The position numbers and the translations under genes are program-made. The notes under the pieces are model-generated. The model saw only the letters and a program-made list of their open reading frames with translations. It had not been told where the DNA came from and ran no database searches. A stretch of 64,000 nucleotides of DNA, from NCBI GenBank assembly GCA_902500775.1, contig CABVRZ010000001.1, positions 153,182 to 217,181 on the forward strand, given 5' to 3'. The DNA is from an uncultured Nitrospira sp. Its GTDB lineage: Bacteria; Nitrospirota; Nitrospiria; Nitrospirales; Nitrospiraceae. How positions within the stretch are numbered: position 1 is the stretch's first letter; each line of letters begins with the position of its first letter. Shown here in pieces: positions 1,561-43,620 of this stretch.

Positions 1561-2253
1561 TCAGGCAACAGAATCGGCTGCTTCTACAATCAAGGACGAG
1601 ACCTCGCGCGGACGCGAAGCCAACGACGCGTGACCGGCTTCCAACGTCACCGTCTTTTTCGGCTTGATACGCTCGGCCATCCAGGCTTGGGTTTCCGGAG
1701 GAATCATGCGATCATGCTTGGAGACTTGATACCAGCTTGGCTTACTCTTCCACGCCGATGCGCCTGATCTATCCTCGAAGCAACGCCCTGCAATCGGTTT
1801 TTGCGAGACCGCCATCACCAGCGCCTCCTGCGCATCGAGGTCCTGCCCGAAGCTTTCCCGAAAGGAGTCTTGAGCGATCCACAAGAAGCCGTCTTTGTCG
1901 GGGTGAATGCTGCTCGCGCCGGACGGCGGTTCGCGCCTGGCAAACAGACTTCCCAAGCTGTCCCCTTCATCGGGTGCAAACGCAGCGATGTACACGAGCC
2001 CGACCACATTCGGCACGTGACCGGCGCCCGTAATCACTGCACCGCCATAAGAATGCCCCACCAACAAAGTGGGACCGTCTTGCGCCGCCGCAAGCTTGCT
2101 CGTGCGGTCGATATCATCGGCCAACGAGGTCAGGGGATTCTGAACCGCAACCACATGAAATCCCCGATCATGCAACGGTGGAATAATATGTCGCCAATGT
2201 GACCCGTCACCCCATGCCCCATGCACCAACACAATATTCAGTTTCGTCTCCAT
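1561..2253 (-). CDS. Alpha/beta hydrolase
   Basis: A 230-residue alpha/beta hydrolase of the small salicylate-esterase/EstC-like type. The oxyanion region LVHGAWGDG follows the first strand, the nucleophile elbow is GHSYGG, the acid is in SKHDRMIP and the catalytic His in EAGHASL, so the triad is complete. The reading frame opens further upstream at 2289, but the ATG at 2253 is preferred because GAGGAAGG lies seven bases upstream and the protein then begins right before strand one. There is no signal peptide. The substrate is unknown, probably a small ester or amide. Confidence 0.88.
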   Translation of the reverse strand: METKLNIVLVHGAWGDGSHWRHIIPPLHDRGFHVVAVQNPLTSLADDIDRTSKLAAAQDGPTLLVGHSYGGAVITGAGHVPNVVGLVYIAAFAPDEGDSLGSLFARREPPSGASSIHPDKDGFLWIAQDSFRESFGQDLDAQEALVMAVSQKPIAGRCFEDRSGASAWKSKPSWYQVSKHDRMIPPETQAWMAERIKPKKTVTLEAGHASLASRPREVSSLIVEAADSVA

Positions 2254-2316
2254 CGCATGTCCTTCCTCGCTTGCATCGATAGTAACCAAAGCATTTCGAT
2301 CGCTGGAAGATGGCGA

Positions 2317-2778
2317 TCACAATCGTTTCTCTTCAAGATCGTACACGTCAAACCACACGTAGACCGGGCGGTGACTCGGCACGAACTTCGGAATATAGTC
2401 CTCAAGATACTGCTGTGCCTGGATGTTCATGTCGCTGAGTCTCATATCGCGCAGCCGGTTATTCCATTTCAACACGTCGTCCGCATCCTTTACTTTGGAG
2501 TGTTCGGTAATCCATCGCGCGAGATCCTCGTCCGTCGCGCCGGTCGCAACGGCGTCTTTGAATTGCTCCGGTGTAATGCCTGAAAATCCAAACCATTGGG
2601 CCGCTAACGAACAAGGCCAGTAACTGTACTCTCCGTTCATGCCCAACAAGGCTGCGCGGCACTTGTCGACACATCGCGCCGCGATGACATAGCCGCCCAA
2701 CTTTTCCCGAGGACTACGGGGATACCCCATCCGGAGATCCTTAGCGAACTTTTTGACCTTCTCGATATCGACACTCAT
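2317..2778 (-). CDS. DUF5069 family protein
   Basis: A 153-residue protein with the DUF5069 hallmark near its start (MGYPRSPREKLGGYV) followed by a conserved ARCVDKCRA helix. It has no signal peptide or membrane segment. The family is common in Nitrospirota, Verrucomicrobia and relatives, and its biochemical role is not established. The upstream gene ends at 2775, so the two genes overlap by four bases (ATGA) and are probably translationally coupled. Confidence 0.85.
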   Translation of the reverse strand: MSVDIEKVKKFAKDLRMGYPRSPREKLGGYVIAARCVDKCRAALLGMNGEYSYWPCSLAAQWFGFSGITPEQFKDAVATGATDEDLARWITEHSKVKDADDVLKWNNRLRDMRLSDMNIQAQQYLEDYIPKFVPSHRPVYVWFDVYDLEEKRL

Positions 2779-3179
2779 GATGGTCCTCCCTGCGGTGTAG
2801 ATCGTGATCCGAGTACTCTCTTGACCTGAGCATGCGCCAATCCCACATCAGGCGCCTGTTGCAACGCATCATAGTAGTGCCTGCTGAATCCTTCGCCCGT
2901 CTCAGATGGAGTCAACAAACTCCGAACCGAGGCAAGCACGGACGCGATCTCGTCGGCCGAAGTCGCCGTGTCCGTCTCGGCAAGTTCATCGAGCTTGGCC
3001 ATGGAGTTCGACAGCGGCCTCAACCAGGCAAACCAGGAATCGCCTAAAACCAATTGCAGAAAGGCGCCATTGGACTCGATGCGGCCATGGACACGCTCAT
3101 ACGACAACCGTTCGGCGTCCAGCAGAGCTTTATGCAACCGGAGCAGCGCGTGAGACAACTCATTGAGCTGTGTGTTCAT
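2775..3179 (-). CDS. Conserved hypothetical protein, helical
   Basis: A 134-residue, largely helical protein that I do not recognise by family. Features are an aromatic-rich centre (LGDSWFAWLRPLS), acidic linkers and no signal peptide or TM segment. Its stop overlaps the start of the DUF5069 gene by four bases, so both belong to one transcript. The frame is convincing because it is the only long frame here and because of this coupling. The function is not predictable. Confidence 0.7.
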   Translation of the reverse strand: MNTQLNELSHALLRLHKALLDAERLSYERVHGRIESNGAFLQLVLGDSWFAWLRPLSNSMAKLDELAETDTATSADEIASVLASVRSLLTPSETGEGFSRHYYDALQQAPDVGLAHAQVKRVLGSRSTPQGGPS

Positions 3180-3243
3180 ATGCTTTTCCCCGTTCAGGGT
3201 CCGTCAGGTCCGCACGAATCAGCGGAGCGGAGGCACGACATCC

Positions 3244-5079
3244 TTACGTTTTCGAATCCAGGGTTCGATCAAGATTGAAGGCTGCACTGATCAGCGCCAA
3301 ATGAGTGAACGCCTGAGGGAAGTTCCCGAGCGCTTCCCCGCCGCTCCCAATCTCTTCGGCATAAAGCCCCACGTGATTGGCATAGCCCAACATCCGCTCG
3401 AACAACAGACGCGCCTCTTCCAGCTTCGCTCGATCGACACGCCCGGTTCTCGCCAAGGCTTCCACCAGCCAAAATGTGCACATATTGAACGTGCCCTCTT
3501 TTCCGTGCAGTCCGTCTTCCCCCGTCTCGCTGTCATACCGATAGACCAAGCCGTCGGACACCAGTCCGCCGTGTTTCGGCGAGCGATTAATGGCCGCCAA
3601 CGTATCGAGCATCCTCGGATCATTGGGCGAAAGAAAGAAGACAAGGGGCATGATCAAATTCGACGCATCCAGCGCATCACTGTCGTAATGCTGCACGAAC
3701 GCCCGACGCTCGGCATTCCATCCGTGCTGCATGATCTCTTCATAGATCTGATCGCGGACACGCAACCACCGCGCGCGGTCGGCGGGGAACGAACGTTTCT
3801 CGGCCAAGCGAAGACCTCGATCCATCGCCACCCAACACATCAATTTGGAGTAGACAAATTGCCGACGTCCGCCCCTGGTTTCCCAAATTCCTTCATCCGG
3901 CTGCTGCCAATTATCACAGAGCCAGTCGAGCCGGCGTCTGATTCTCATCCAGGTGTCATGACCGATCGGCATCACATGTTTATTGTAGAGATAGACGGCG
4001 TCCAGGAGTTCGCCATAGATGTCCAGCTGCAGCTGGTTGTAGGCGCCGTTGCCGATCCGCACAGGCTTCGCCCCGCAGTAGCCGTCCAGATGATCGAGCG
4101 TCTGTTCCGTCAAATCGTGACGACCGTCGACTCCGTACACAATCTGAAGCGAGCCGTCCGCCTCAACTTCGTTGGCGCGCGCCGCCAGCCATTTCAGAAA
4201 ACGGTCCGCTTCCTCGGTAAACCCGATTTTCAGAAACGCGTAGACGGTAAAGGCCGCATCGCGCATCCAGGTGTATCGATAGTCCCAGTTGCGGACGCCG
4301 CCCGGGGTTTCGGGCAAACTACAGGTTGGCGCGGCGACGATGGCACCGGTCGGCTCGAACGTCAGGAGCTTCAAGCACAGGGCAGAACGATGGACCATTT
4401 CCCGCCATCGGCCGGTATAGGTGCAACGCGAGAGCCACCGACGCCAATACTTCACCGTGTGCTCGAACAACTCGTTCACTTCACTCAATGAGGGCTGAGG
4501 ACCGCACCCCTCGTCAGACTCGATCGGACGCAGAACGAAGGCAACCGTCTGTTCTTCCTCCAGCGTGAACACCGCTGAAACCCCGCGGTCGTCCATCGTC
4601 AGCGGAATGTCGGCTGCCAAACCAAGGCTCAACTCTGTGGAGTAAAAACTGGCGCCTTGCTCGGTCACAACGGTCCGATGCGGCGTTCGAGCATAGTTGA
4701 AGGCCGGATGGCAACGGACTCGAAACTCCATGCTCCCCTGTGTGACCCGAATGCGTCGGATCAACTGATGCTGCCAAGGTGACTCCTCTGGCAACCCGAC
4801 CGGCATAAAGTCTTGAATTTCCGCCACGCCGCTCGTTGCATAGAACCGTGTCACCAGGACGTTGGTGTCCGGCCAGTAGAGTTGTTTCGACGAACTGTTC
4901 GGATCACTGGCACTGATGTCGAACCGGCCTCCCTTCTCATCGTCGAGAATGGCGGCAAAGATGCTTGGAGAATCGAAATGCGGGAGGCAGAGCCAGTCGA
5001 TAGAACCATGCATACCCACCAGCGCCGCGGTACGCATGTTACCGATGAGTCCGTAGTTTTGAATAGGTTGATAGGCCAT
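3244..5079 (-). CDS. Glycoside hydrolase family 15 (glucoamylase/trehalase-like)
   Basis: A 611-residue GH15 protein. The N-terminal domain starts [10 protein letters not shown] and contains the typical [15 protein letters not shown] signature. The (alpha/alpha)6 catalytic domain follows, with [14 protein letters not shown] and the late [19 protein letters not shown] region that carries the catalytic-base Glu. Bacterial members of this length hydrolyse trehalose or alpha-glucans. No signal peptide is seen, so it is cytosolic. The ATG at 5079 (AGGA nine bases upstream) is preferred over the one at 5118, which would add a non-conserved tail. With the ROK glucokinase at 7.6-8.4 kb it could feed glucose into glycolysis. 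Confidence 0.92.
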
Positions 5080-5315
5080 TGTGTTGAGTCCTGTTCGTTC
5101 AGCGCGACACGAGACCAACTGGTCGTCGGTCCGAACACACGCTCGATGTGGCGAGTTCTAGTCTGGCGTAGCGGCAAAACCGCTTCTGTTCACGATCATA
5201 GACATATTCAGATTCAGCTTCAACCGCCCTCGCCCAGGTTGAGAAAACGCCGACACTGGGCTACTCCTTCTTCGACATTGAGAAAGTTGGCAACGTTTCC
5301 CATACGAGCCTATCT

Positions 5316-6920
5316 TCACCAGGGAATACGCCGTTCTCCCAAGCCCAAGCGAAGCGCCTCAATATCCAGTTCCTGCTCTAAACGGTGGAGCACTTCATCG
5401 CTGATCGTGCCTTCATCACGGAGTCGAATCAAGGCAGACCGTTCGGCGACCAACGCCGCTTCTTTGAGTCGAAGCAACGCTTCGTTGGTCTCTTGAATCG
5501 TCTCAGGGGAAACCGCCCCGTTCGACGAAATGTCATCCAGCCGCTTGCCATAATGACCCTGCAGCTGATCGACATGGTCCGGCTTCGGCCACGCTTCCTC
5601 TTTGAGTTCATTGAGTCGCGACAAGGCTGCTCCGGCTGCATGCCGACGTGCCTGGATCTCTTCTTCTTCCCAAGCGGATCCCTCCGCCACTCCGAGTCTT
5701 CGGATGAGCGGCGTCAAGGTCAACCCTTGTATCACCAGGGTAGACAGGATCACGGAAAAACTGAGGAGGATGATCTCGGTGCGAAAGGGAAAGGGCGCTC
5801 CCGAATTGATCGTCATCGGCAAGGCCATCGCGCCCGCAAGCGTGACGATTCCCCGCATGCCGATCCATGACACCAGGAAGATATGGGGCCAGGGCGGCAT
5901 CGGATCTCGCTTCCGGATAGAGGCGCTGAGGACACGGGGAAGCATCGCCGCCAGCGGCACCCACCCCAGCCGCACCAGAATAACCGTCACGCTGATCAAT
6001 GCGCCGCCGAGCATGACCGACCCCAATCGCTCGGTGGAAATATCTGCTCGTAATGCGGCCAGCTGGAGGCCGATCAAAATAAAAATGACTCCGTTGAGCA
6101 GAAAGATGAGCAAATCCCAGACAGCCCGCCCCTGAATTCTCGTCGCCGGAGACACGATCCGGCTGACATGTTGCCGAAGATAGAGGCCCCAAACCACGCA
6201 GGCCAACACCGAGGACGCATGGATGGATTCCCCGATCACCCACGCGACATAGGGCCCCAACAGCGTCACGGCAACCTCGGTGAAGCTGTCTTCGACAAGG
6301 TAGAGCACCCATCGCGTCACGATTCCGACTAAAAACCCGACGGCAATGCCGGCCACGGCGGCATACAGAAATTGTAGAAGCGTTTCCCCCCACAGGAAGG
6401 CCCCGCTGACGGTCGCCGCCACGGCCGTCCGATAGAGCACCAACGCCGTCGCATCATTCACCAAACTTTCTCCTTCCAGGATGGTCACGACGCGATGCGG
6501 CATATTCAGCCGCTTCCCGATGGCTGTGGCAGACACGGCATCCGGTGGGGACACGATGGCGCCGAGCGCGACGGCTTCGGCCCATCCGAACCCCAGCAGC
6601 ACATGAGCTGCCACGGCTACCGCCGCAGTGGTCGCCAAGACCAGTCCCACGGCCAGAAGTGAAATCGGGCGGATATTGGCGCGAAACTCTCGAAGGGACG
6701 TGAAGTAGGCGGCCGCCGCCAGAATCGGCGGTAAAAACACCAGAAAGACCAAATCCGGGTTCAGCGTGACTGTCGGAACGCCGGGCACGACCGCCAAGAC
6801 AAGCCCGCCGATGACAAGCAAGATCGGATAGGGCAGGAAAATCAACCGCGCAAGCGTCGTCAAGGCCAGCACGACGGCGAGCAGGAGGATGATAATTTCA
6901 AGTTGATGGAGATTTTCCAT
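5316..6920 (-). CDS. Na+/H+ antiporter, CPA1 family
   Basis: A protein of about 534 residues with some 12 hydrophobic segments in the first 400 residues. The CPA1 signature region is ALGAIVSPPDAVSATAI, with the conserved Asp pair region LEGESLVNDATALV that binds and exchanges cations. A hydrophilic, charged C-terminal tail of about 130 residues follows and is probably cytosolic and regulatory. It exchanges Na+ (or K+/Li+) for H+ across the inner membrane. The ATG at 6920 is used because the first TM segment follows directly; a GTG at 6980 in the same frame would add 20 residues, and neither has a strong ribosome site. Confidence 0.9.
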   Translation of the reverse strand: MENLHQLEIIILLLAVVLALTTLARLIFLPYPILLVIGGLVLAVVPGVPTVTLNPDLVFLVFLPPILAAAAYFTSLREFRANIRPISLLAVGLVLATTAAVAVAAHVLLGFGWAEAVALGAIVSPPDAVSATAIGKRLNMPHRVVTILEGESLVNDATALVLYRTAVAATVSGAFLWGETLLQFLYAAVAGIAVGFLVGIVTRWVLYLVEDSFTEVAVTLLGPYVAWVIGESIHASSVLACVVWGLYLRQHVSRIVSPATRIQGRAVWDLLIFLLNGVIFILIGLQLAALRADISTERLGSVMLGGALISVTVILVRLGWVPLAAMLPRVLSASIRKRDPMPPWPHIFLVSWIGMRGIVTLAGAMALPMTINSGAPFPFRTEIILLSFSVILSTLVIQGLTLTPLIRRLGVAEGSAWEEEEIQARRHAAGAALSRLNELKEEAWPKPDHVDQLQGHYGKRLDDISSNGAVSPETIQETNEALLRLKEAALVAERSALIRLRDEGTISDEVLHRLEQELDIEALRLGLGERRIPW

Positions 6921-7013
6921 CTCTATGGCCGCCCACGACTGTATCGGTCTCTCAGATACAACCTCTGTCCCGGAAATCACTCCGACTATCCGCCGTCACA
7001 AGATCGGCTCAGA

Positions 7014-7565
7014 CTATTCAGTCAATCCGATCTGCTTCATAAACGCGGCGTTGTCCCAGAACAACCATTCCTCAGCCATGGTGGGGCCGACCCATCGTCC
7101 GATCGTGACCATGCTCAATTTGAACGCTTTCCCGGTCGGCGCAATCGTCTTCCCATCGCCGATCGGCATCGGCTCGCTAAACGTTCCTTCCATTACTCCC
7201 ATCACCGAGGTCCACTCTCCTGACGCAATCTTGATCGGATGCTCTTTGATGCGCGTATCGGGTGCGAACACGAACATCGCCTTGAGATCGTCGATGTGTG
7301 CATCGATTCCCTTCGTCGTTCGCCCATCCGGCCAATGGACGATGATGTCGTCGGCATGGCTGCGCCCCAGCTGATCCCATTTCTGGCCGCTGTAGACATT
7401 GAAATCCAGATCATCGAAGTTATCGAGATGCGCCTGCTCCATCGCGTGGCGAGCGAAATCGCTTCCGGTCATTCCCTGGTTCCCGACACACCCGATTCCC
7501 ATTCCCGCAATGATGAGCACACAGAGTCCTGACAGGATGTTTGTCTTCACGGCACTATCCTCCAC
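7014..7565 (-). CDS. SnoaL-like lipoprotein
   Basis: A 183-residue protein starting with a lipoprotein signal: a hydrophobic stretch ending in a lipobox-like GMGIGC, with Cys about residue 26. The mature part is a SnoaL/NTF2-like alpha+beta cone, with DFARHAMEQAHLDNFDD and the ADDIIVHWPDGRTTKG core typical of ester-cyclase-like proteins. It is predicted to be anchored to a membrane from the periplasmic side. Its ligand or reaction is unknown. The GTG at codon 6 is an alternative start that would leave a standard signal peptide beginning at KTNIL. Confidence 0.78.
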   Translation of the reverse strand: MEDSAVKTNILSGLCVLIIAGMGIGCVGNQGMTGSDFARHAMEQAHLDNFDDLDFNVYSGQKWDQLGRSHADDIIVHWPDGRTTKGIDAHIDDLKAMFVFAPDTRIKEHPIKIASGEWTSVMGVMEGTFSEPMPIGDGKTIAPTGKAFKLSMVTIGRWVGPTMAEEWLFWDNAAFMKQIGLTE

Positions 7566-7607
7566 ATATCATTCATCACATCATGCACCGACCGACTGGC
7601 TTCCCAT

Positions 7608-34725: not shown

Positions 34726-35055
34726 GATGAACCCTCCTTGTGTCCTTTTGAGCACGACTCAGTCTGTATCGATTCCCTTCGTCATCATGAACTCACCCTC
34801 TCCGAGCTATTAACGCGTTCGCACCTCCACCCTCCCTCGCAATGCGATTACGTTCAATATCAGCTAGGCAACATGTGTTCCAGATAGCCACGAGACGGAG
34901 CGGCAGTTCGATCTCGTTGTTACTCGTAAAGAATTGGATGGTGATGACTCAGCGCTGAGACAGGAGGAAGAGAGATGACGCGCCGAAACCACGGCACAGT
35001 GACGAACCACCGGCGCCTGTGGTTTCCCCATGCTATCTTTAGCAAGAGGTGTTTC
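34726..35055. other. Divergent intergenic region
   Basis: About 330 bases between the minus-strand NmrA-like gene and the plus-strand secreted protein. Promoters in both directions are expected, but no clear -35/-10 or operator was recognised. Confidence 0.4.
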
Positions 35056-35544
35056 ATGATGCGACACATGCCTATTTGCCTGCTGATGGCCCTAACCATG
35101 AGCGCCGAATTGGCTGTTCTTTCATCCGCTGCCACAGCAGATGACCTCCGGCAATCGTCTCGTGTCGGAGCCTTGAGGCTCTCTCTCAGCACGTACGAAC
35201 AGATTCCGATCGGCACCCTGTTGACCCATCCGGATCGCTATCACATGAGAGAGATCCGAATCACCGGAACCGTCATGGCGACTCAAACGGAGACCATCAC
35301 GAATCGGATGATCTGCGGTCGTGCCCATGAACGAACGACGCTGACCGTGGAAGATGATAGTGGCAAAATCGAGGTGCTCGATCGAGGAGCGTGCGGATGG
35401 AATGTCGGGACATTGAAGGCGCCGATGCTGAAGGCAGGCCAGCAGATCGATCTCTTGGTGCAGATCATGATCTCCGTCAGCGCCGGCACTCCCGGTCCAT
35501 CAGTAGAGGCCACCATCCGCTACATAGAACCGGTGCGAGAGTAA
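35056..35544 (+). CDS. Secreted OB-fold-like hypothetical protein
   Basis: A 162-residue protein with a signal peptide (PICLLMALTMSAELAVLSSAATA, cleaved near ATA-DD). The mature part has a strand pattern like an OB-fold: MREIRITGTVMATQTE, then TTLTVEDDSGKIEVLDRGACGWN, similar to periplasmic nucleic-acid-binding-like or DUF4920-type domains. It has two Cys in the mature chain. AAGAGGT lies before the ATG at 35056; the frame continues upstream to 34975 without conserved content. The function is unknown. Confidence 0.7.
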   Translation: MMRHMPICLLMALTMSAELAVLSSAATADDLRQSSRVGALRLSLSTYEQIPIGTLLTHPDRYHMREIRITGTVMATQTETITNRMICGRAHERTTLTVEDDSGKIEVLDRGACGWNVGTLKAPMLKAGQQIDLLVQIMISVSAGTPGPSVEATIRYIEPVRE

Positions 35545-35659
35545 GAGTCATTTCAATCCCTCCGTTCGTTTAGTCCGATGAATTCAGGGCAAACTTATCG
35601 CGGACCAGGCAGGGCTTTGCATGGCAAAGACGTGACTTCTCAGACTGAATGGCATAAGC

Positions 35660-36217
35660 TTGACCCCCGTCGTGAGCGATGAACTCGACATACTCAAATC
35701 GGTGGCCACACGGTTGGAGACCGCCGGCATTCCCTATATGGTGACCGGCTCGATGGCGGCCAACTTCTATGCCACACCCAGAATGACGCGCGACATCGAT
35801 CTGGTTGTCGAGTTACGAGACGCGGATGTTGGGCGCATGGTCGCTCTATTTCAGGACGAGTATTACATCGATCACGATATGGTCGAGCAGGCGGTCAAAA
35901 GTCGGTCCATGTTCAACATGATCAACAATGCACTCGTGGTCAAAGTCGATTGCGTCGTGAGAAAAGATAGTGCCTATCGCCAAGAGGAGTTTTCCCGGCG
36001 ACGCTATGTGATCATTGATGGTCGGTTAGTCGCCATCGTCGCCCCGGAAGATCTCATCCTCTCAAAACTGGAGTGGGCTAAGGAAAGTCGCAGTCAGATG
36101 CAACTCGATGATGTACGGAATCTCTTACGCTCTGTGAAACATCTTGACCGTGCCTACCTCACCCGATGGGCCGATCAGCTCGGATTGGCGGCACTGTATC
36201 GCGAGGTTCACTCATGA
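35660..36217 (+). CDS. Nucleotidyltransferase-like protein (AbiEii/DUF6036-type)
   Basis: A 185-residue protein with the nucleotidyltransferase signature GSMAANFYATPRMTRDIDLVVEL: GS, then a DxD-like DID pair about 17 residues on, and a third acidic residue in VVKVDCVV. The C-terminal part (APEDLILSKLEWAKESRS) is typical of AbiEii-like or DUF6036 proteins. Members modify tRNA or proteins in toxin-antitoxin or abortive-infection systems, although many are uncharacterised. The start is TTG at 35660 or GTG at 35672. The stop overlaps the next gene by four bases. Confidence 0.8.
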   Translation: MTPVVSDELDILKSVATRLETAGIPYMVTGSMAANFYATPRMTRDIDLVVELRDADVGRMVALFQDEYYIDHDMVEQAVKSRSMFNMINNALVVKVDCVVRKDSAYRQEEFSRRRYVIIDGRLVAIVAPEDLILSKLEWAKESRSQMQLDDVRNLLRSVKHLDRAYLTRWADQLGLAALYREVHS

Positions 36218-36480
36218 CCGATACCCCACCTGCAATCGACGAGCGATATCGTGCCATGCTCATGCAACGAACCGGGGAAGCACGCCTGAAAATGGGATGC
36301 GCCATGCGTGACACAGCTCGTGCGTTTGCGGAAGCGTCCATCCGAGAACAAGCCCCCCAGGCGAGCATGGCGACAATTCGCAAAGGCCTCTTCCTTCGTT
36401 TCTATGGCCATGAGTTCGATGCCTCGACACGCGACAAAATTCTCGCCTCGATCGAGCGAGCGGCGCAACCTGGCTCTTGA
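36214..36480 (+). CDS. Small partner of the nucleotidyltransferase
   Basis: An 88-residue helical protein I do not recognise by name. DERYRAMLMQRTGEARLKMGCAMRDTAR suggests a long helix, and LFLRFYGHEFDASTRDKI lies near the end. The ATG at 36214 overlaps the stop of the nucleotidyltransferase gene (ATGA), so translation is coupled. Two-gene units of a small helical protein and a nucleotidyltransferase are common as toxin-antitoxin modules. Which member would be toxic cannot be read from sequence. Confidence 0.7.
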   Translation: MTDTPPAIDERYRAMLMQRTGEARLKMGCAMRDTARAFAEASIREQAPQASMATIRKGLFLRFYGHEFDASTRDKILASIERAAQPGS

Positions 36481-36793
36481 AACCAGCCATGCGATCACTG
36501 GTCATGTCAGACCCCAATTGACTCCTCCAACTTTCCGTTCGTGCTGAGCATGTCGAAGCACTCTGCTTCCTCTCCTGCGCTTCACGCTTCGCGAGAGACG
36601 CTTCACATGCCTCAATTTGCCCCCGGTACCCAATCGGGGACGCCGAAGCGGAGTCGCTCTTGATCGGTCAAATTTCGGCCGATCGTGTCCTGCACCACCT
36701 TATCATTGACAGTTTTATCGATTCAGCAGTACCTTCCCGCACAGAGTCAATACGTAAGTCCTGCATGGATTCTCTCCAAGAGAGTGACTGATT
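36481..36793. other. Intergenic stretch with partial repeat
   Basis: About 313 bases before the ROCO gene. A partial arm of repeat family A (CCGTTCGTGCTGAGCATGTC) occurs at about 36536-36557. No promoter was convincingly identified. Confidence 0.45.
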
Positions 36794-39700
36794 ATGGACG
36801 GATTGCAGATTGCGCGACGGCTGATCGCCGAGGAACGTGAGAAGAAGACAGGATTTCTCGACCTCGGCAACCTTCAACTCACAGAGGTTCCGGTTGAGCT
36901 GTTCGAACTCACCCATTTGCGTGGATTGAACCTTGGAACATGGTATGTGGACGAGCACGGGAGGGATCAGAAATCCCGCAATAGCAATGAGAACGGCATC
37001 AACGAGCTGCGAACATTGCCGAGTGCGTTCAGCACTTTAGGCAACCTGACAACGCTGTCTCTACATGGTAATCCTATCGGCGACCTCAGTCCGCTCGCCC
37101 CCCTCACCGCCTTGCAGCAGCTCAACTGCTCGGACACTCAAGTCAGCGATCTCTCGCCCCTCCACACCCTCACCGCCTTGCAACACCTGGACTGCTTAGG
37201 CACCCCTATCAGCGATCTCTCGCCACTCAGCCCCCTCACCGCCTTGCAACAGCTGCACTGCTGGAACACCCAAGTCAGCGATCTCAGCCCGCTCCACTCC
37301 CTCACCGCCTTACAGCAGCTCAACTACTCGAACACCCAAGTCAGCGATCTCTCGCCCCTCCACACCCTCACCGCCTTACAGCAGCTCAACTACTCGAACA
37401 CTCAAGTCAGCGATCTCTCGCCCCTCCACACCCTCACCGCCTTGCAGCAGCTCAACTGCTCGGACACCCAAGTCAGCGATCTCTCGCCGTTGATTGGCCT
37501 ATTGAATTTGGGCAAACTCGCAGCGAACAACCTTAGGCTTGAAGACTTCCCGCGACAGTTGTTATTCCAAAAAATCCTTCAAGAACTTACTCTCTACGGA
37601 ACTACCATTCCTGGAATACCAGCTGAGATCTTGTCAGATTACTACAGCACAAACTGTCTCGACAATTTATGCAATCACTTGCTGGATGTGGAGCATGGCT
37701 CTGAAAAAGTGTGTGAGGCCAAGCTCGTCGTGCTGGGTAACGGTCGAGTCGGCAAGACCCAGATCTGTCGGCGCCTGCGTGGACTTCCCTACGACGAGGC
37801 CGTGCCCTCCACCCACGGCATCACCGTCACGGCAGAACCGTGGGCCGGTTCGACGAGCGGGGAGGTGCTGAACATCTGGGACTTCGGTGGGCAGGACATC
37901 TATCACGGAGCCCATACGCTCTTTATGAAGACCAGTGCCGTCTTCTTGATCGCCTGGCATCCGGACTTTGAGGCCACGGGGGAACAGCCGATCGACGGTC
38001 AGTGGTTCCGCAATTATCCGCTCTCCTACTGGCTGGACTATGTGCGGACGCTTGGACGGAAAGATTGTCCCATTCTCGTCGTGCAGACTCGCTGCGATCG
38101 GCCCGAGCAAGAAGTCCGCCGTCTGCCCGTGGACGATGCTTTCCTCACATTCCCCTCGCTGAAGCCCTGCTGGTATAGCGCCAAAACCCCACGAGGCCAA
38201 GGTGCATTGAATGATGCACTCCATGACGCCATCCGCTATCTCCGCGAGCGAGATGGGATCGTGGCGATCGGGATTGGAGGGGCAGCGGTCATCCGGCAGC
38301 TTGAAACCTGGCGAAACGAGGACCAGGCACTTCCGACAGAACAACGGCTTCATCGGACCCTGTCACAAGAAGAATTCAGAAATCTCTGCGCGCACACAGG
38401 AGGAGTCCGCTCACCGGAAAGCTTGCTCGCGTATTTACATAATGTCGGCGTCGTTTTCTATCAACCTCACCTGTTCGACAATCGGATCATCCTTGACCAA
38501 TCATGGGCCTTGGACGCGGTGTACGCTGTCTTTGACCGTCAGGAGACCTATCCATACATTCGGAGTCTACGTGGTCGATTCACACAGTCGCTCCTCGCCT
38601 TATCGATCTGGCGTGATTACTCGGACGCGGAACAACAGCTCTTCTTGAGCCTGATGGAATCCTGTGGAATCGCGTTTATTCATCGTGAAGCCGAACCGAA
38701 GCTGGGACTCCCCGTGGAATACCTCGCGCCGGATCTGCTTCCCGATAAAGATGCCGTGGCTGATCAACTCACCGGCAGGTGGAACGACCAGGAGGAAAGC
38801 CGGCAGCTTATCTACGATTATCCATTTCTCCATACGGGACTGATGCGTGCGCTGCTGTGCGACATTGGGAGCCGATCCAAAGAAGCGGGTGTCTATTGGA
38901 AATATGGGGCGTGGCTCTATGAAACCTCGACAGGCTGTCGCGCCTTGATCGAACAGCAGATGCAGGATGATCGCCGCGGTCGCATCGTCCTCACTGTGCA
39001 GGGCCTCCGACACCAAGAGCTCGTTCGTTGGCTGCGTGAGCGGATCGAGCAGCGCAATCGGCTATTCGGCCACCCTGAGCTACCACCTACGGTGGATGAC
39101 TTGAGCAAGGACCTGCCGCTTCCAGTGCATCCGGATGCACGACGACTCGTTGAATCGCAATCAGACGAGCTTGCGTCAACGTCGACAGCTGCGCGTATGG
39201 CTCAAGAACCGATCTTCGGGAAGCCCCCAGAATCGTTCTTCCCGTCTCATGAGCCTTTGGTGTTCATTTCTTACGCGTGGGGCGATGACACACCTGCCGG
39301 TCAACAACGAGCCAAGGTCGTGGATGATCTTTGCGCCGCGCTCGGTCAGCACGGTATCACGGTCCGCCGTGACCAAGCTGAGATGCGGCCCGGCGATCTG
39401 ATCAGCGAGTTCATGGATCGCCTGACGGAAGGCGACTGTATTCTTGTCGTCATCAGCGACAAGTATCTGCGATCGGAATACTGCATGTATGAACTCTTCC
39501 GAATCTTTCGGAACTGCGCTGATAAGCCGGAACGCTTTCTCCGTAAGGTGATTCCATTGCTTCTTCCCGATTCGAAAATTGACGAGCTAGACGACCGGCT
39601 GGAACGGGCGGTTCATTGGACCACCCTAGAGGAGAAACTAGAATCACGCGTGAAGGACAATGTCGTTGCAGTCGGAACTGAGTTCTTTCGGAAGTTCAAG

Positions 39701-39835
39701 TTGATCGGCGAGTTCGCCCGCAACACGTCAGACATGCTGGAGCATCTAGTCGACAAACTCCAGCCACGCGACTTCGACCGCCAGGCCCAGGAAGGATTCA
39801 AGGAGATATTGGACCAAATTACGAGAAGACGTTGA
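36794..39835 (+). CDS. LRR-Roc-COR-TIR (ROCO) protein
   Basis: A 1013-residue multidomain protein. Residues 1-95 are an N-terminal LRR cap. About 99-245 are six to seven 22-residue SDS22-type leucine-rich repeats (core SPLHTLTALQQLN). About 308-480 are a Roc GTPase, with P-loop GNGRVGKT (315-322), G3 DFGGQD (363-368) and a TRCD G4 motif. About 500-800 are a COR domain. About 817-960 are a TIR domain with FISYAW and YCMYELF, in which E900 is the NADase-type catalytic Glu. The layout resembles NLR-like immune switches: sensor, GTPase, effector. The TIR would be expected to cleave NAD+ or to signal. The ATG at 36794 lacks a strong ribosome site. It sits in an accessory island with toxin-antitoxin-type genes. 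Confidence 0.93.
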   Translation: MDGLQIARRLIAEEREKKTGFLDLGNLQLTEVPVELFELTHLRGLNLGTWYVDEHGRDQKSRNSNENGINELRTLPSAFSTLGNLTTLSLHGNPIGDLSPLAPLTALQQLNCSDTQVSDLSPLHTLTALQHLDCLGTPISDLSPLSPLTALQQLHCWNTQVSDLSPLHSLTALQQLNYSNTQVSDLSPLHTLTALQQLNYSNTQVSDLSPLHTLTALQQLNCSDTQVSDLSPLIGLLNLGKLAANNLRLEDFPRQLLFQKILQELTLYGTTIPGIPAEILSDYYSTNCLDNLCNHLLDVEHGSEKVCEAKLVVLGNGRVGKTQICRRLRGLPYDEAVPSTHGITVTAEPWAGSTSGEVLNIWDFGGQDIYHGAHTLFMKTSAVFLIAWHPDFEATGEQPIDGQWFRNYPLSYWLDYVRTLGRKDCPILVVQTRCDRPEQEVRRLPVDDAFLTFPSLKPCWYSAKTPRGQGALNDALHDAIRYLRERDGIVAIGIGGAAVIRQLETWRNEDQALPTEQRLHRTLSQEEFRNLCAHTGGVRSPESLLAYLHNVGVVFYQPHLFDNRIILDQSWALDAVYAVFDRQETYPYIRSLRGRFTQSLLALSIWRDYSDAEQQLFLSLMESCGIAFIHREAEPKLGLPVEYLAPDLLPDKDAVADQLTGRWNDQEESRQLIYDYPFLHTGLMRALLCDIGSRSKEAGVYWKYGAWLYETSTGCRALIEQQMQDDRRGRIVLTVQGLRHQELVRWLRERIEQRNRLFGHPELPPTVDDLSKDLPLPVHPDARRLVESQSDELASTSTAARMAQEPIFGKPPESFFPSHEPLVFISYAWGDDTPAGQQRAKVVDDLCAALGQHGITVRRDQAEMRPGDLISEFMDRLTEGDCILVVISDKYLRSEYCMYELFRIFRNCADKPERFLRKVIPLLLPDSKIDELDDRLERAVHWTTLEEKLESRVKDNVVAVGTEFFRKFKLIGEFARNTSDMLEHLVDKLQPRDFDRQAQEGFKEILDQITRRR
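37088..37489 (+). repeat. Tandem 66-bp repeats inside the ROCO gene
   Basis: Six in-frame 66-bp units start at 37088, 37154, 37220, 37286, 37352 and 37418, and a partial seventh starts at 37484. The last three full units are almost identical in DNA as well as protein, while the second and third are more diverged. Recent unequal crossover is likely, and copy number may vary between strains. Confidence 0.9.
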
Positions 39836-39868
39836 AGGGCTGAAGGCCGACCGGAAATTGTGTCGCCA

Positions 39869-40030
39869 CTAGACAAACCTAGCCACTTGAACACTCCGAA
39901 CCAGGAGGTTCATTAGAGCCGCAACCGTACCATGCGTAGTTATCCGATGCAAAGCGGTTGATTTGCCCACCAGGTGATTCAGCTGAAGTGCGTTCTTCCT
40001 GGAGATTGTACGTGGAGTTGCGTTACGCAG
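39869..40030 (-). pseudogene. Probable decayed hicA toxin gene
   Basis: Directly after the hicB stop, the minus strand reads (from a CTG in place of ATG at 40030) RNATPRTISRKNALQLNHL and then TALHRITTHGT...VAALMNLL. HicA-type mRNA interferases start with PRxxSGKEL, have a central GSHxRLTTH block and a GTLAAIL end; the fragments fit this order but the catalytic GSH motif is damaged. There is no ATG start. It is best read as an inactivated toxin beside a surviving antitoxin. Confidence 0.4.
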
Positions 40031-40235
40031 AGGCTTCGACGTATTCGACTTGGCTATTTGGCGGAGGAATGGGCAGGCTGTCTGCACGGAGGCCTTCAAG
40101 ATGAAACTCGATAGCCTCACGGATCATTACTTCAGTTTCCTCAATCGTCGCCCCGGTTGCCACACACCCAGGCAAGTCAGGCACATAGGCGGCATAGTTT
40201 GAACTAGCTTTTTCGATCACGATCGCATAGCGCAT
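40023..40235 (-). CDS. hicB: HicB-family antitoxin
   Basis: A 70-residue HicB-like protein with a YAIVIEKASSNYAAYVPDLPGC partial RNase-H-fold core, ATGATIEETEVMIREAIEFHLEGL, and a short tail. HicB antitoxins bind and block HicA. The usual C-terminal DNA-binding domain is missing, as in the shorter subgroup. The expected hicA partner is only a probable remnant just downstream (39869-40030). Confidence 0.85.
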   Translation of the reverse strand: MRYAIVIEKASSNYAAYVPDLPGCVATGATIEETEVMIREAIEFHLEGLRADSLPIPPPNSQVEYVEASA

Positions 40236-40280
40236 AATGGTCTCTCTACTTCTTCCAAACCAACGGCATGAGGCGAACCC

Positions 40281-40670
40281 TCAGTTGGCCTCAGAAATGA
40301 GCTGACACACCGACCCATACGGCTTCAACCCTGAGTCAGCCGTGAGCAACCGCAGATGTTCGACGTGGGCTTGTGCCAACAAGATACGGTCAAAGAGATC
40401 TCGATGATGAAGTGGCAACCGTTCAAGCGCCAGGGTGTGAGCCACTGACACCGGTAATTCCTGAAAACCGCTGTCCGCAATCTTGGCGGCAAGCTCGGCA
40501 GGGTCAGCGGAAAGCTTTTTGAGTTGGATCTTGATGACCATCTCCCAGAGTGAGGCGGCACTGACATAGACCACCGAGGTGGTTTCAATCCGATGATAGA
40601 TGCTTTTTGAGAGCCGTGGCGCCTGAATCATAAACCACAAGAAGACGTGGGTATCTAACAGAAGATTCAC
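40281..40670 (-). CDS. vapC: PIN-domain toxin, VapC family
   Basis: A 129-residue PIN-domain RNase. The acidic residues are at LLLDTHVFLWF, in the SLWEMVIKIQ helix, in DLFDRILLAQA and in LLTADSGL, giving the four-acidic site that binds Mg2+. It would cut RNA when freed from its antitoxin. The preceding gene overlaps by four bases (40667-40670), as is usual for these modules. The target RNA is unknown. Confidence 0.92.
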   Translation of the reverse strand: MNLLLDTHVFLWFMIQAPRLSKSIYHRIETTSVVYVSAASLWEMVIKIQLKKLSADPAELAAKIADSGFQELPVSVAHTLALERLPLHHRDLFDRILLAQAHVEHLRLLTADSGLKPYGSVCQLISEAN

Positions 40671-40918
40671 TCCACGCCCTCGAACGATGCCAGTGTGTCC
40701 GATGGGAGCGGTGCATCAAAATCGTCTGCGATGGTCACACGCCCATTCAAGAGCCCTGGACGTCGGACAGGAACGGGTGTGTCGAGCGGCCCCAGCTGGG
40801 CCACTGCGATCCCGCCTTTGCAAATCGTGATGCGCTGCCCTTTTGCAACGGCGGCCAGGAGCTTGGAACGATGTATCTTGGCTTCGCGGACATTCACTCT
40901 TTTTGTGTTCACTTTCAT
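40667..40918 (-). CDS. Phd/YefM-type antitoxin
   Basis: An 83-residue protein with a Phd-like N-terminus (VNVREAKIHRSKLLAAVAKGQRITICKGGIAVAQL), which forms the DNA-binding and dimerisation fold. A Pro-rich, acidic C-terminal tail (DDFDAPLPSDTLASFEG) is of the kind that wraps around the VapC active site. It is the first gene of the pair and probably represses the operon. The ATG at 40918 is used; the frame opens at 40942. Confidence 0.88.
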   Translation of the reverse strand: MKVNTKRVNVREAKIHRSKLLAAVAKGQRITICKGGIAVAQLGPLDTPVPVRRPGLLNGRVTIADDFDAPLPSDTLASFEGVE

Positions 40919-41084
40919 GAGACGCTTCACGTGACTGGCCAAAGGGTACCACGCTGATGAGTGGACATGCAGCCCGATAAAAGATCTGCTTCTGTGAGTT
41001 CCGTTCGTGCAGATTGACCTGGCAAGAGCCTATCTGAGAGGGGAAAGTACAGCAAACTATGGGTCAGCAACCAAACCTCTATCT

Positions 41085-41519
41085 CTACTCCCACCCACTC
41101 ACTTCGTAGCCCTTCTCTTTCAAACACTTCGTGACGGCATCGGCATAGGGAGGATCCGGTTCCAGAGGCTTAAACGTTCCCCCAAGTAAGCCAAGCGTAA
41201 ATCCAATGGCACTGCCCGCAGCTGCGCCGATGGTCACTCCGGGCAATCCACCAACAATCCCGGCCGAAGCACCGACCGCGCCACCCAAGGTGAGGCCCAG
41301 CACCGCCCCTGTTGCCGCATTGGTGCTTTGATTGGTCCCATGCTGCAATCCAGACTTTTCTGCTCGTCGCTGGCAGGAGTCGATCTCCTGCTGAGCCACT
41401 TGCTTGCCGTACAGATGGAGTTGCTTATTGGATCGTAAGGTAGGTTGCGGTCCTGTACAGGCCGAAACTGCGAGGAGAAGCATCAGGGCGATCAGTCGCT
41501 GCAAGCATCGATGGTCCAC
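41085..41519 (-). CDS. Glycine-zipper lipoprotein 1
   Basis: A 144-residue lipoprotein. The signal LIALMLLLAVSAC has its lipobox Cys at about residue 21. A charged region (QVAQQEIDSCQRRAE) precedes a long glycine-zipper stretch (TGAVLGLTLGGAVGASAG, and further GxxxG repeats), which could oligomerise in a membrane. The C-terminus CLKEKGYEVSGWE matches the paralogue at 41832-42269 (CLQEKGYEVTGWQ). A GTG start at 41519 has AAGGG upstream. The function is unknown. Confidence 0.82.
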   Translation of the reverse strand: MDHRCLQRLIALMLLLAVSACTGPQPTLRSNKQLHLYGKQVAQQEIDSCQRRAEKSGLQHGTNQSTNAATGAVLGLTLGGAVGASAGIVGGLPGVTIGAAAGSAIGFTLGLLGGTFKPLEPDPPYADAVTKCLKEKGYEVSGWE

Positions 41520-41831
41520 GACAATCCCTTCGGGGGTTCAGATTCCTTGTCCTCACTTCTCACCCTTTCCGAGAAATGTCGAGCATATTCAGATAGTGCA
41601 CAGCCTTAATAGCACACCCTTCGACCAGCTCATGGCGAACGGATCTATTGGTAATGGGCATTTCCGGTGACTTCCACCACCTGCTCGCATTGTCGAAATA
41701 CATTCATCATTCCTCTCGTTCCCTCTTGGATTGGGCACTGAAGTTGTTTCCATTGCGCGCATCCAACGAGGACCTTCTAAGGCCGCGCGTTGGGCGAGCA
41801 CCGAAACGACTTCGGTGCCTAATTCCTCCTC
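41520..41831. other. Intergenic stretch between lipoproteins
   Basis: About 312 bases. A degenerate match to the repeat A arm (CTTCGACCAGCTCATGGCGA) is seen at about 41618-41637. No gene is supported. Confidence 0.4.
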
Positions 41832-42269
41832 TTACTGCCAGCCCGTCACCTCATAGCCCTTTTCCTGCAAACAGCGGTTGACGTACCCCGTGTAGGCCTG
41901 GCTGGGCTGACTGGACGGCCCAACAATGGCCGAGAATAGTCCCGTCAGAAGGCCCCAGACCGCGCCACTTGCCGCCCCGATCATGGCGCCTAACCCTGCG
42001 GACGCTCCAGAAATGATGCCGCCGATCGCGCCACTTGCCGCACCGGCCCCGGCGCCGACGGCTGTCCCCGTGGCAACACGCCCGGCCTTGCCGCTCCCTT
42101 CCGAAGCACCAGCTGATTCTGCAGCCTCCTTACACGCCTCAATATCTTGCTCGGCGGTGTCCGTTCCCACCGATTGCATATGCGCATTCGGATACAGTAC
42201 CGGACGCGCCCCGGAGCAAGCCGACAGCGTCAGCACGACGAAGATGGCAATCAGCTTCATCCCCTTCAT
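41832..42269 (-). CDS. Glycine-zipper lipoprotein 2
   Basis: A 145-residue lipoprotein. The signal LIAIFVVLTLSAC has Cys at about residue 18. TDTAEQDIEACKEAAESAG follows, then alternating Gly/Ala repeats (GTAVGAGAGAASGAIGG and on), and CLQEKGYEVTGWQ at the end. It is clearly related to the lipoprotein at 41085-41519 in both its order and its end. The ATG at 42269 overlaps the stop of the DUF167 gene by four bases and has GGAGGG upstream, so it is preferred over the in-frame start at 42407. Confidence 0.85.
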   Translation of the reverse strand: MKGMKLIAIFVVLTLSACSGARPVLYPNAHMQSVGTDTAEQDIEACKEAAESAGASEGSGKAGRVATGTAVGAGAGAASGAIGGIISGASAGLGAMIGAASGAVWGLLTGLFSAIVGPSSQPSQAYTGYVNRCLQEKGYEVTGWQ

Positions 42270-42589
42270 CTCTCCACCCTCCCTTTCGAGTCCTGTGGCA
42301 GCAAGCGGGCCACCAGCGACTCTGCTGTAATCCCTTGAACACACAGTCGCTTCCGTCGCGTCTCCGTTCCCCCTTGGATCTGAACCTGTGTCCGAGCAAT
42401 CGAACACCGGTCGGCGATAAAGCGGATCAGCTCTTCATTGGCGGCACCCTGAATCGGGCGAGCCGCGACACGGATCTTGATTGCGTCTCCGTGTACTCCG
42501 ACACAGTCCGTTCGTGATGCGTTGGGTTGGACATGCACGGTCAGGAGTACGCCGCGCTCACTGTCTCGTGCCAGGCAGGACATCCCCAT
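42266..42589 (-). CDS. DUF167 (YggU) family protein
   Basis: A 107-residue DUF167 protein with the core LTVHVQPNASRTDCVGVHGDAIKIRVAARPIQGAANEELI and the GGTETRRKRLCVQG end. It is cytosolic, with a small alpha/beta fold of unknown function. It is coupled to the glycine-zipper lipoprotein gene by a 4-base overlap and lies 12 bases downstream of the CbbQ-type ATPase gene. Confidence 0.88.
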   Translation of the reverse strand: MGMSCLARDSERGVLLTVHVQPNASRTDCVGVHGDAIKIRVAARPIQGAANEELIRFIADRCSIARTQVQIQGGTETRRKRLCVQGITAESLVARLLPQDSKGRVER

Positions 42590-42601
42590 GACGTGACAAC
42601 T

Positions 42602-43417
42602 TCAGAAGATGGCCTTGACCAGTTCGAGGATCGCCCGTTGCATATCCGTATCATCCGTGATCGGACGGGCCACGGCCACGTCACAGGCTCGTGCCGGTGG
42701 AACCCCTTGCTTGATCAAGGTGCCGGCATAGATCAAGAGTCTGGTACTGACGCCTTCCTCGAGACCGTGATTTCTCAGGTTGCGGACTTTTTGCCCGAGC
42801 TTGACGAGATTGCCGGCTATCGCTGCCTCCACGTCTGCTTCACGTTGAATCACCCGTGATTCGATGTCCGGAGCCGGATAGTCGAATTCGATCGCCATGA
42901 ATCGCTGCTTCGTACTTTGCTTCAAATCCTTTAAGACACTTTGATAGCCCGGGTTGTAGGAAATCACCAGCATAAACTCGTCGGCCGCCTCCACGATCTG
43001 CCCCTTCTTCTCGATCGGGAGCACTCGGCGGTCATCACTGAGGGGATGGATGATCACGGTCGTATCCTTCCTGGCTTCGACCACCTCATCGAGATACACG
43101 ATGGCTCCCTGTTTCACTCCGACCGTCAACGGCCCGTCCATCCAGACCGTCTCCTGTCCCTTGAGGAGATACCGACCAACTAAGTCTGAGGCCGTCAGAT
43201 CTTCATGACAGGCAACCGTGATCAGCGGTCGACCGAGCGTATAGGCCATGTACTGCACAAACCGGGTCTTCCCGCAGCCGGTCGGCCCCTTGAGCATCAC
43301 CGGCAGTTTCCGCTCTGCTGCGATGGTAAACAGGCCGACCTCTCCAGAGACCTCGGCATAGAACGGCTCTTGCGTGACCCGATACTGCGCCACATCGATT
43401 TCGCGTACCTGTTGCAT
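42602..43417 (-). CDS. cbbQ: MoxR-type AAA+ ATPase, CbbQ/NirQ/NorQ family
   Basis: A 271-residue AAA+ ATPase of the length usual for CbbQ. Walker A is [10 protein letters not shown] at about residue 46, Walker B is [12 protein letters not shown], and the family signatures [16 protein letters not shown] and [13 protein letters not shown] are present. These ATPases, with a VWA partner (CbbO/NorD), remodel RubisCO or nitric-oxide reductase. No VWA gene is adjacent, so the client is unknown. The ATG at 43417 is used; the frame opens at 43519. Confidence 0.88.
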
Positions 43418-43620
43418 CACTCCACGGCCCCTTAGATTGAATCGTGACCGAAAACCGACCGGTGACGGCCGGTTCACCACCCGCCACCTTAAACGGAACA
43501 AAGTGTCAAGATCAAGCAAAGGGGAATGGTATCGTGTGAATGTGCGAGCACGAAGGCAGAAGCTGGCAAAGTCTGTTCCGCCGCCCTCCTCCCATTTTCC
43601 GATATGGAGGTAACCAAATC
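43418..43620. other. Intergenic stretch
   Basis: No gene or repeat was identified here. On the plus strand it ends with the ribosome site ATGGAGGTAACC at about 43603-43614, which serves a short open frame beginning at 43621. Confidence 0.4.

Follow-up and report, generated by a model that had tools for sequence, protein, structure and literature searches.

The gene and its product

The window considered here is a stretch of 64,000 nucleotides from an uncultured Nitrospira sp. (contig CABVRZ010000001.1, positions 153,182 to 217,181), and the gene under study lies on its forward strand at 36794–39835, where an intact open reading frame (ORF) with an ATG start encodes a protein of 1013 amino acids combining leucine-rich repeats (LRRs), a Roc GTPase, a COR domain and a TIR domain. 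The 4.53-Mb genome contains no second strong copy. The predicted sensor, which is hypervariable, consists of seven 22-residue LRRs of internalin type (residues 85–238, positions 37046–37507; Tandem Repeats Finder, TRF, and our own repeat parse; Pfam LRR_4, E = 9e-28). It is followed on the same strand by Roc (residues 310–435, 37721–38098; PF08477, E = 3e-16), by COR (38306–39052), made up of COR-A (residues 505–649; PF16095, E = 2e-19) and COR-B (residues 670–753; PF25497, E = 3e-8), and by TIR (residues 823–947, 39260–39634; PF13676, TIR_2, E = 7e-16). Each of the five matches exceeds the curated Pfam cut-off.

An AlphaFold model of the whole chain, computed from a 68-row alignment, reached a mean predicted local distance difference test (pLDDT) score of 88.8 and a predicted template modelling score of 0.78; a single-sequence run gave a pLDDT of 39 and was unusable. 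The score fell below 50 only at residues 774–802, in the linker between COR and TIR, and was about 80–90 in the TIR region. The top fold match in the PDB was the LRR–Roc–COR structure of the Chlorobium tepidum Roco protein (CtRoco; 6hlu, Foldseek E = 2e-35), followed by LRRK2 and LRRK1, and the COR fold matched CtRoco 6hlu and 3dpu. The model, together with more than 80 homologues, supports a single folded architecture. The original prediction, made from the letters of the stretch, had placed the four elements in one chain, with a P-loop at residues 315–322 and a glutamate at residue 900; Pfam, model and homologues agree with the former, and both motifs were located exactly there. Its label 'NLR-like' is fair as an analogy, but the NTPase is a Roc domain with a small-GTPase fold according to Pfam and Foldseek, and not the NACHT or NB-ARC domain, of STAND type, that goes with the NLR class. 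The succession of Roc and COR makes the protein a member of the Roco (Roc-COR) family.

Among solved structures, the repeats are nearest in sequence to those of Listeria internalins, as would be expected if the protein were directed at cells other than its own, for instance those of a eukaryotic grazer or a rival bacterium. We find this scarcely credible, given that the N-terminus begins directly in the LRR cap and that neither a signal sequence nor a transmembrane stretch was obvious on inspection of the protein. Moreover, the substrates of a GTPase and of an NAD+-cleaving enzyme are intracellular, and the closest full-length fold is that of the cytosolic CtRoco.

Conserved catalytic centres and exchangeable effectors

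Among 84,980 species genomes scanned, 369 confirmed relatives were found, the best 80 of which were kept. Nearly all of these 80 are full-length across Roc–COR–TIR; the closest come from Nitrospira, and the others are spread over Nitrospirota, Verrucomicrobiota, Myxococcota, Planctomycetota, Cyanobacteriota, Acidobacteriota, Binatota and many Proteobacteria. The G motifs of Roc are intact (P-loop GNGRVGKT at 315–322, WDFGGQD at 362–368 and TRCD at 432–435), with K321 of the P-loop and the G3 motif WDFGGQ invariant in 83 of 83 aligned homologues. Glutamate is found at position 900 (codon 39491–39493) in 75 of the 78 alignment rows having a residue there, and S826, S894, C897, E900 and W942, located in or just after TIR, are invariant in the full alignment. 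E900 aligns with the catalytic glutamate of RUN1, at the position that reads alanine in PDB 7s2z, and the solved TIRs nearest in sequence are those of the plant TIR-NLRs RUN1, RPV1, L6 and RPS4 (E = 2e-6). Judged by its sequence, the domain thus has both the TIR fold and the glutamate at the alphaC position that characterize TIR NADases, and is predicted to be one. The conservation of both catalytic centres agrees with the original view of a sensor, a switch and an effector on a single chain; that both have been kept over a long divergence counts against a TIR serving as a mere adaptor.

The effector, on the other hand, may be replaced. In two relatives of the same LRR–Roc–COR subfamily (L103 and L104), the C-terminus matches Pfam GT4-conflict (E = 2e-120 or better) in place of TIR, a glycosyltransferase family that takes its name from conflict systems. 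A third (L105) carries an FAD/NAD(P)-binding region at its C-terminus. Interchangeable effectors on one chassis would be typical of immune receptors.

Several other proteins were observed in the course of this survey. Four loci of Nitrospirales (L169–L172, family f4) encode LRR–Roc–COR proteins with a DUF4062-like C-terminal region, and a 2026 report describes DUF4062 as a TIR-like NADase (PMC13174449); the match is suggestive, but with E = 0.0055 it lies below the Pfam cut-off, and we do not claim it as a further effector. Another Nitrospira (G118) contains a long ORF in which WD40 repeats, followed by a Roc-type GTPase and what resembles the start of a TIR, can be made out by eye; this would be another kind of sensor coupled to a similar switch. 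In a Gemmataceae genome, a Ser/Thr kinase–TIR fusion (positions 5412–7586 of locus L070) is encoded 13 bp downstream of a Roco–TIR gene. A distant LRR–Roc–COR protein with a TIR-like C-terminus is encoded on a viral-classed contig of 69 kb, an uncultivated virus genome from IMG/VR (L181). A search of viral contigs returned only two distant Rocos, and phage records contained no match to the protein.

The LRR array

The LRRs are the fastest-changing part of the protein. They are encoded by a tandem array with a period of 66 bp and 5.9 copies at 37101–37488 (TRF). According to our own parse, the array has seven units in the window and in the genome carrying the closest allele (G126), ten and five in two further Nitrospira copies (G088 and G108, respectively) and as many as 20 elsewhere among the homologues; most of the genomes being draft assemblies, these lengths may carry assembly errors. 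Between the window and G126, the non-synonymous divergence (dN) is 0.254 in the LRRs as against 0.027 in Roc–COR, and the differences are concentrated on the concave face, where 27 of 42 residues differ (64%), compared with 6 of 70 in the scaffold (9%) and 25 of 464 in Roc–COR (5%). Similarly, entropy within arrays peaks at the concave positions 3, 5, 7 and 8 (37 arrays). Since units r2, r5 and r6 of the window are 95–98% identical to one another and at most 82% identical to any unit of G126, the array has been rebuilt since the last shared ancestor of the two genes.

It is tempting to speculate that 66-bp units might be duplicated, lost and recombined here so as to renew the specificity of an immune receptor, with the GTPase and effector staying fixed and the whole gene passing from one species to another at a cargo site. 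Such an LRR repertoire mechanism, with a logic comparable to that of shuffled algal ROCO LRRs, is a tentative proposal that we hold to be possible rather than probable. In any case, sibling alleles sharing 95% of their Roc–COR residues and differing in their sensors are well suited to sensor-swap experiments.

Distribution, exchange and the cargo site

The gene is present in only 4 of 175 genomes of the family. In G108 and G126 it occupies the same site as in the window, and comparison with the latter shows that it has moved between species. Synonymous divergence (dS) from G126 is high in the flanking core genes (0.97 for the NmrA-like gene, 1.11 for CbbQ, 2.5 and 1.5 for the glycine-zipper genes) and low within the exchanged part (0.24 for the left neighbour of the gene, 0.13 for COR, 0.27 for Roc, 0.5–0.6 for LRR and TIR). 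Exchange of the segment containing the Roco gene therefore took place long after the two species had diverged, recombination through the shared flanks being the probable route, and these values indicate that the segment is itself a mosaic.

A conserved block of 34 bp (CATTGACAG...CAGCAGTACCTTCC, 36704–36737, forward strand) lies about 60–90 bp upstream of the gene. An alignment of four upstream regions shows that it is retained ahead of Nitrospira copies located at different sites, that of G088 included, and its pattern was found in seven loci (L001, L002, L004, L005, L029, L145 and L177). It is probably the gene's own promoter or operator; a scan for the sigma-70 consensus gave no match at the block. 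Its conservation even at the other site in G088 implies that the travelling unit consists of the upstream element and the gene.

The gene belongs to a variable segment (35545–41085) that is absent from five related Nitrospira loci. To its right, the glycine-zipper genes and a CbbQ-type ATPase (41085–43519) are found in 78 of 79 genomes of the genus; in the 20 loci that were fetched, the left flank (the NmrA-like gene and 34975–35544) mostly adjoins this right flank. The two nearly touch in six genomes (G057, G089, G117, G118, G125 and G128), where the window holds about 5.5 kb extra. Elsewhere the site contains VapBC and little else (G053, G061 and G067) or a Type II methyltransferase (G056 and G129; PADLOC, E = 2e-107 or better), and a VapC/VapB pair, seen in five of the loci, is its commonest cargo in relatives. 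A site that is either empty or filled with conflict genes is a cargo site rather than a random place. A search for transposon or att-type boundaries of the segment found only a 9-bp repeat of chance length. The location in an accessory island, as first proposed, is thus upheld, and the gene behaves like an accessory conflict gene.

Within the segment, the Roco gene is preceded by a DUF2204-type nucleotidyltransferase gene (35660–36217, forward strand; Pfam E = 5.5e-5), possibly part of a toxin–antitoxin system and not found by tblastn in any of the 20 syntenic loci, and by an ORF of 104 codons (36166–36480) without a recognizable domain. Of the 'nucleotidyltransferase-type pair' named in the original prediction, only the first member could consequently be recognized. 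The HicB and VapBC neighbours it listed are both present on the reverse strand: a HicB-like antitoxin gene (40023–40235; PF15919, E = 1.8e-12), with no HicA seen adjoining it, and a VapC/VapB pair (40281–40942) composed of a PIN toxin (40281–40670; E = 5e-15) and an antitoxin-type ORF without a Pfam match (40667–40942). In G126 the cargo beside the Roco gene is a different toxin–antitoxin-like pair.

The abundance of toxin–antitoxin genes at this site across many Nitrospira could suggest that the gene is itself a selfish or stabilization module, in which a toxin-like TIR restrained by LRR–Roc–COR would be addictive, like the VapBC, HicB and nucleotidyltransferase modules beside it. We regard this as very unlikely, since it is a single gene without an antitoxin partner and addiction would leave the concentrated change of the concave LRR face unexplained.

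Two further loci deserve mention. At the same site in G088 (contig C401, positions 2042–6023 of locus L130), genes for a TIR protein (504 amino acids), an nSTAND1 NTPase (628 amino acids) and a WD40 fragment (121 amino acids) lie between two PIN modules. In G056, the methyltransferase adjoins an ORF of 149 codons that contains a D...EIK motif and matches restriction enzymes very weakly; the two possibly form a restriction–modification pair.

Proposed function

We propose that the protein is a single-protein intracellular immune receptor, most likely an alarm inside the cell against phage, and put the probability of the receptor reading at about 0.62. The hypervariable concave face of the LRRs would bind a molecule derived from the invader or altered by infection; binding would shift the Roc–COR GTPase to another nucleotide and dimer state, COR being the dimerization module in Roco proteins; the C-terminal TIR domains would then come together, and the assembled TIR would cleave NAD+ by means of E900, so that the infected cell would stop growing or die (abortive infection). 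The starting points are features read from the DNA itself, namely the architecture, the conservation of catalytic residues in Roc and TIR, the hypervariability of the LRRs, the accessory and mobile distribution and the exchange of effectors in relatives. We infer the steps beyond the architecture, from the ligand and the GTPase-gated activation to the cleavage of NAD+ and phage as the trigger, from the biochemistry of CtRoco, for which GTP-driven monomerization has been described (PMC11052575), and from TIR NADases, such as SpbK (PMC12847820).

Several observations weigh against this proposal. PADLOC models at E = 1e-10 matched about 15 distinct genes among the 227 ORFs lying no more than 7 kb from 20 homologues, and about 10 among 220 ORFs in 20 distant stretches of the same contigs. 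This is no clear excess of defence genes, and the counts are approximate because they were made by hand from per-family tallies, with part of one list missing and ORFs called longest first. Several of the approximately 15 matches moreover come from a single Type I restriction locus. No recurring neighbour family or operon partner was found across the homologues. The homologues therefore look stand-alone, and a general association with islands cannot be used to argue for defence. In addition, the G088 copy adjoins metabolic genes. The original prediction had regarded a consistent housekeeping neighbourhood as telling against a defence role, and on this point the evidence is divided: the Nitrospira site hosts conflict genes, while the 20 neighbourhoods, the many homologues without a recurring neighbour and the G088 copy go the other way. 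Positive selection was not seen in the LRRs in the comparison of the window with G126 (dN/dS = 0.49, below 1), and relaxed constraint together with repeat homogenization may account for their change instead. Finally, a search of the open-licence literature yielded neither a phage test nor biochemical evidence for a protein of this kind.

Three homologues of one sub-clade (L077, L089 and L098) are followed by an overlapping ORF of 135–143 codons without a Pfam match, the product of which apparently has two hydrophobic stretches.

The main alternatives are a TIR that makes a messenger and a signalling role outside defence. In the former case, the TIR would not drain NAD+ but convert it into a messenger of the cyclic ADP-ribose type, as Thoeris ThsB does, and this messenger would switch on an effector encoded elsewhere. 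Both types of activity are known among TIR NADases; by sequence, the domain is closest to TIRs of plants, RUN1 for example, and plant TIRs of this sort act partly via messengers. This is nevertheless unlikely in view of the lack of an adjacent effector gene in the window and of a recurrent neighbour family, and of a gene that moves alone with its upstream block. In the latter case, LRR–Roc–COR would sense an internal cue and TIR would be a protein–protein adaptor in regulation. The neighbourhoods of the homologues show no clear enrichment in defence genes, and the functions of bacterial Rocos are unknown, very little having been established according to a 2019 review (PMC6337361). A non-defence role would, however, fit poorly with the conserved catalytic glutamate, with the patchy distribution, horizontal exchange and quickly changing array, and with the replacement of the effector by GT4-conflict in relatives; we consider it unlikely too. 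The immune-receptor reading remains the one we favour. If it is correct, it would link GTPase switches of the LRRK2 type to TIR immunity in bacteria. Roco proteins have been studied mainly because mutations in human LRRK2 cause Parkinson's disease, and the present locus, with its conserved TIR catalytic residue and fast-changing LRR face, offers a concrete and testable case for an immune role of the family.

Comparison with known systems

A 2019 review assigned all prokaryotic Rocos identified so far to the simple LRR–Roc–COR group (PMC6337361), and the original prediction regarded ROCO proteins and TIR effectors as known separately. The combination of LRR, Roc (AP-GTPase), COR and TIR has, however, already been catalogued among predicted counter-invader systems, in which AP-GTPase–COR proteins with rapidly evolving LRRs end in any of at least 24 domains, among them TIR and GT4 (eLife 2021;10:e70394; PMC8195603). 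Judging from its sequence, the protein corresponds to that description feature by feature: its N-terminal LRRs evolve rapidly, COR follows the AP-GTPase, and the effector at the C-terminus varies among relatives. It is therefore a member of an already predicted class. That study is an in silico catalogue; new here are a single locus with its empty site, an interspecies exchange measured against the flanks, a quantified variation of the concave face and the turnover of 66-bp units.

Other systems share parts of this architecture. The C. tepidum Roco (6hlu, 8r4b) has the same LRR–Roc–COR core, with template modelling scores of 0.54–0.61, but is only about 20% identical in the fold alignment, and the protein in the window adds a TIR effector and a short tandem array of internalin type. 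The TIR region matches bSEFIR best among the PADLOC models (E = 9e-11), though partially (37–106 of 412), and the remaining architecture differs. Bacterial NLR analogues that combine TIR and STAND, such as the TIR, nSTAND1 and WD40 set at the same site in G088, follow the same logic of sensor, NTPase switch and TIR, their switch being a STAND ATPase rather than a Roc GTPase. Likewise, the plant TIR-NLRs RUN1, RPV1, L6 and RPS4 combine TIR, a nucleotide switch and LRRs, with a catalytic glutamate that aligns, but in reversed domain order and with NB-ARC in place of Roc–COR, so that the present protein is an analogue of these receptors and not a member of their group. In the LRR-ROCO proteins of brown algae, which are candidate immune receptors, LRR units also vary as separate modules and immune recognition has been proposed (PMC11378527); the Nitrospira gene differs from them in its intronless 66-bp tandem array and in its TIR domain.
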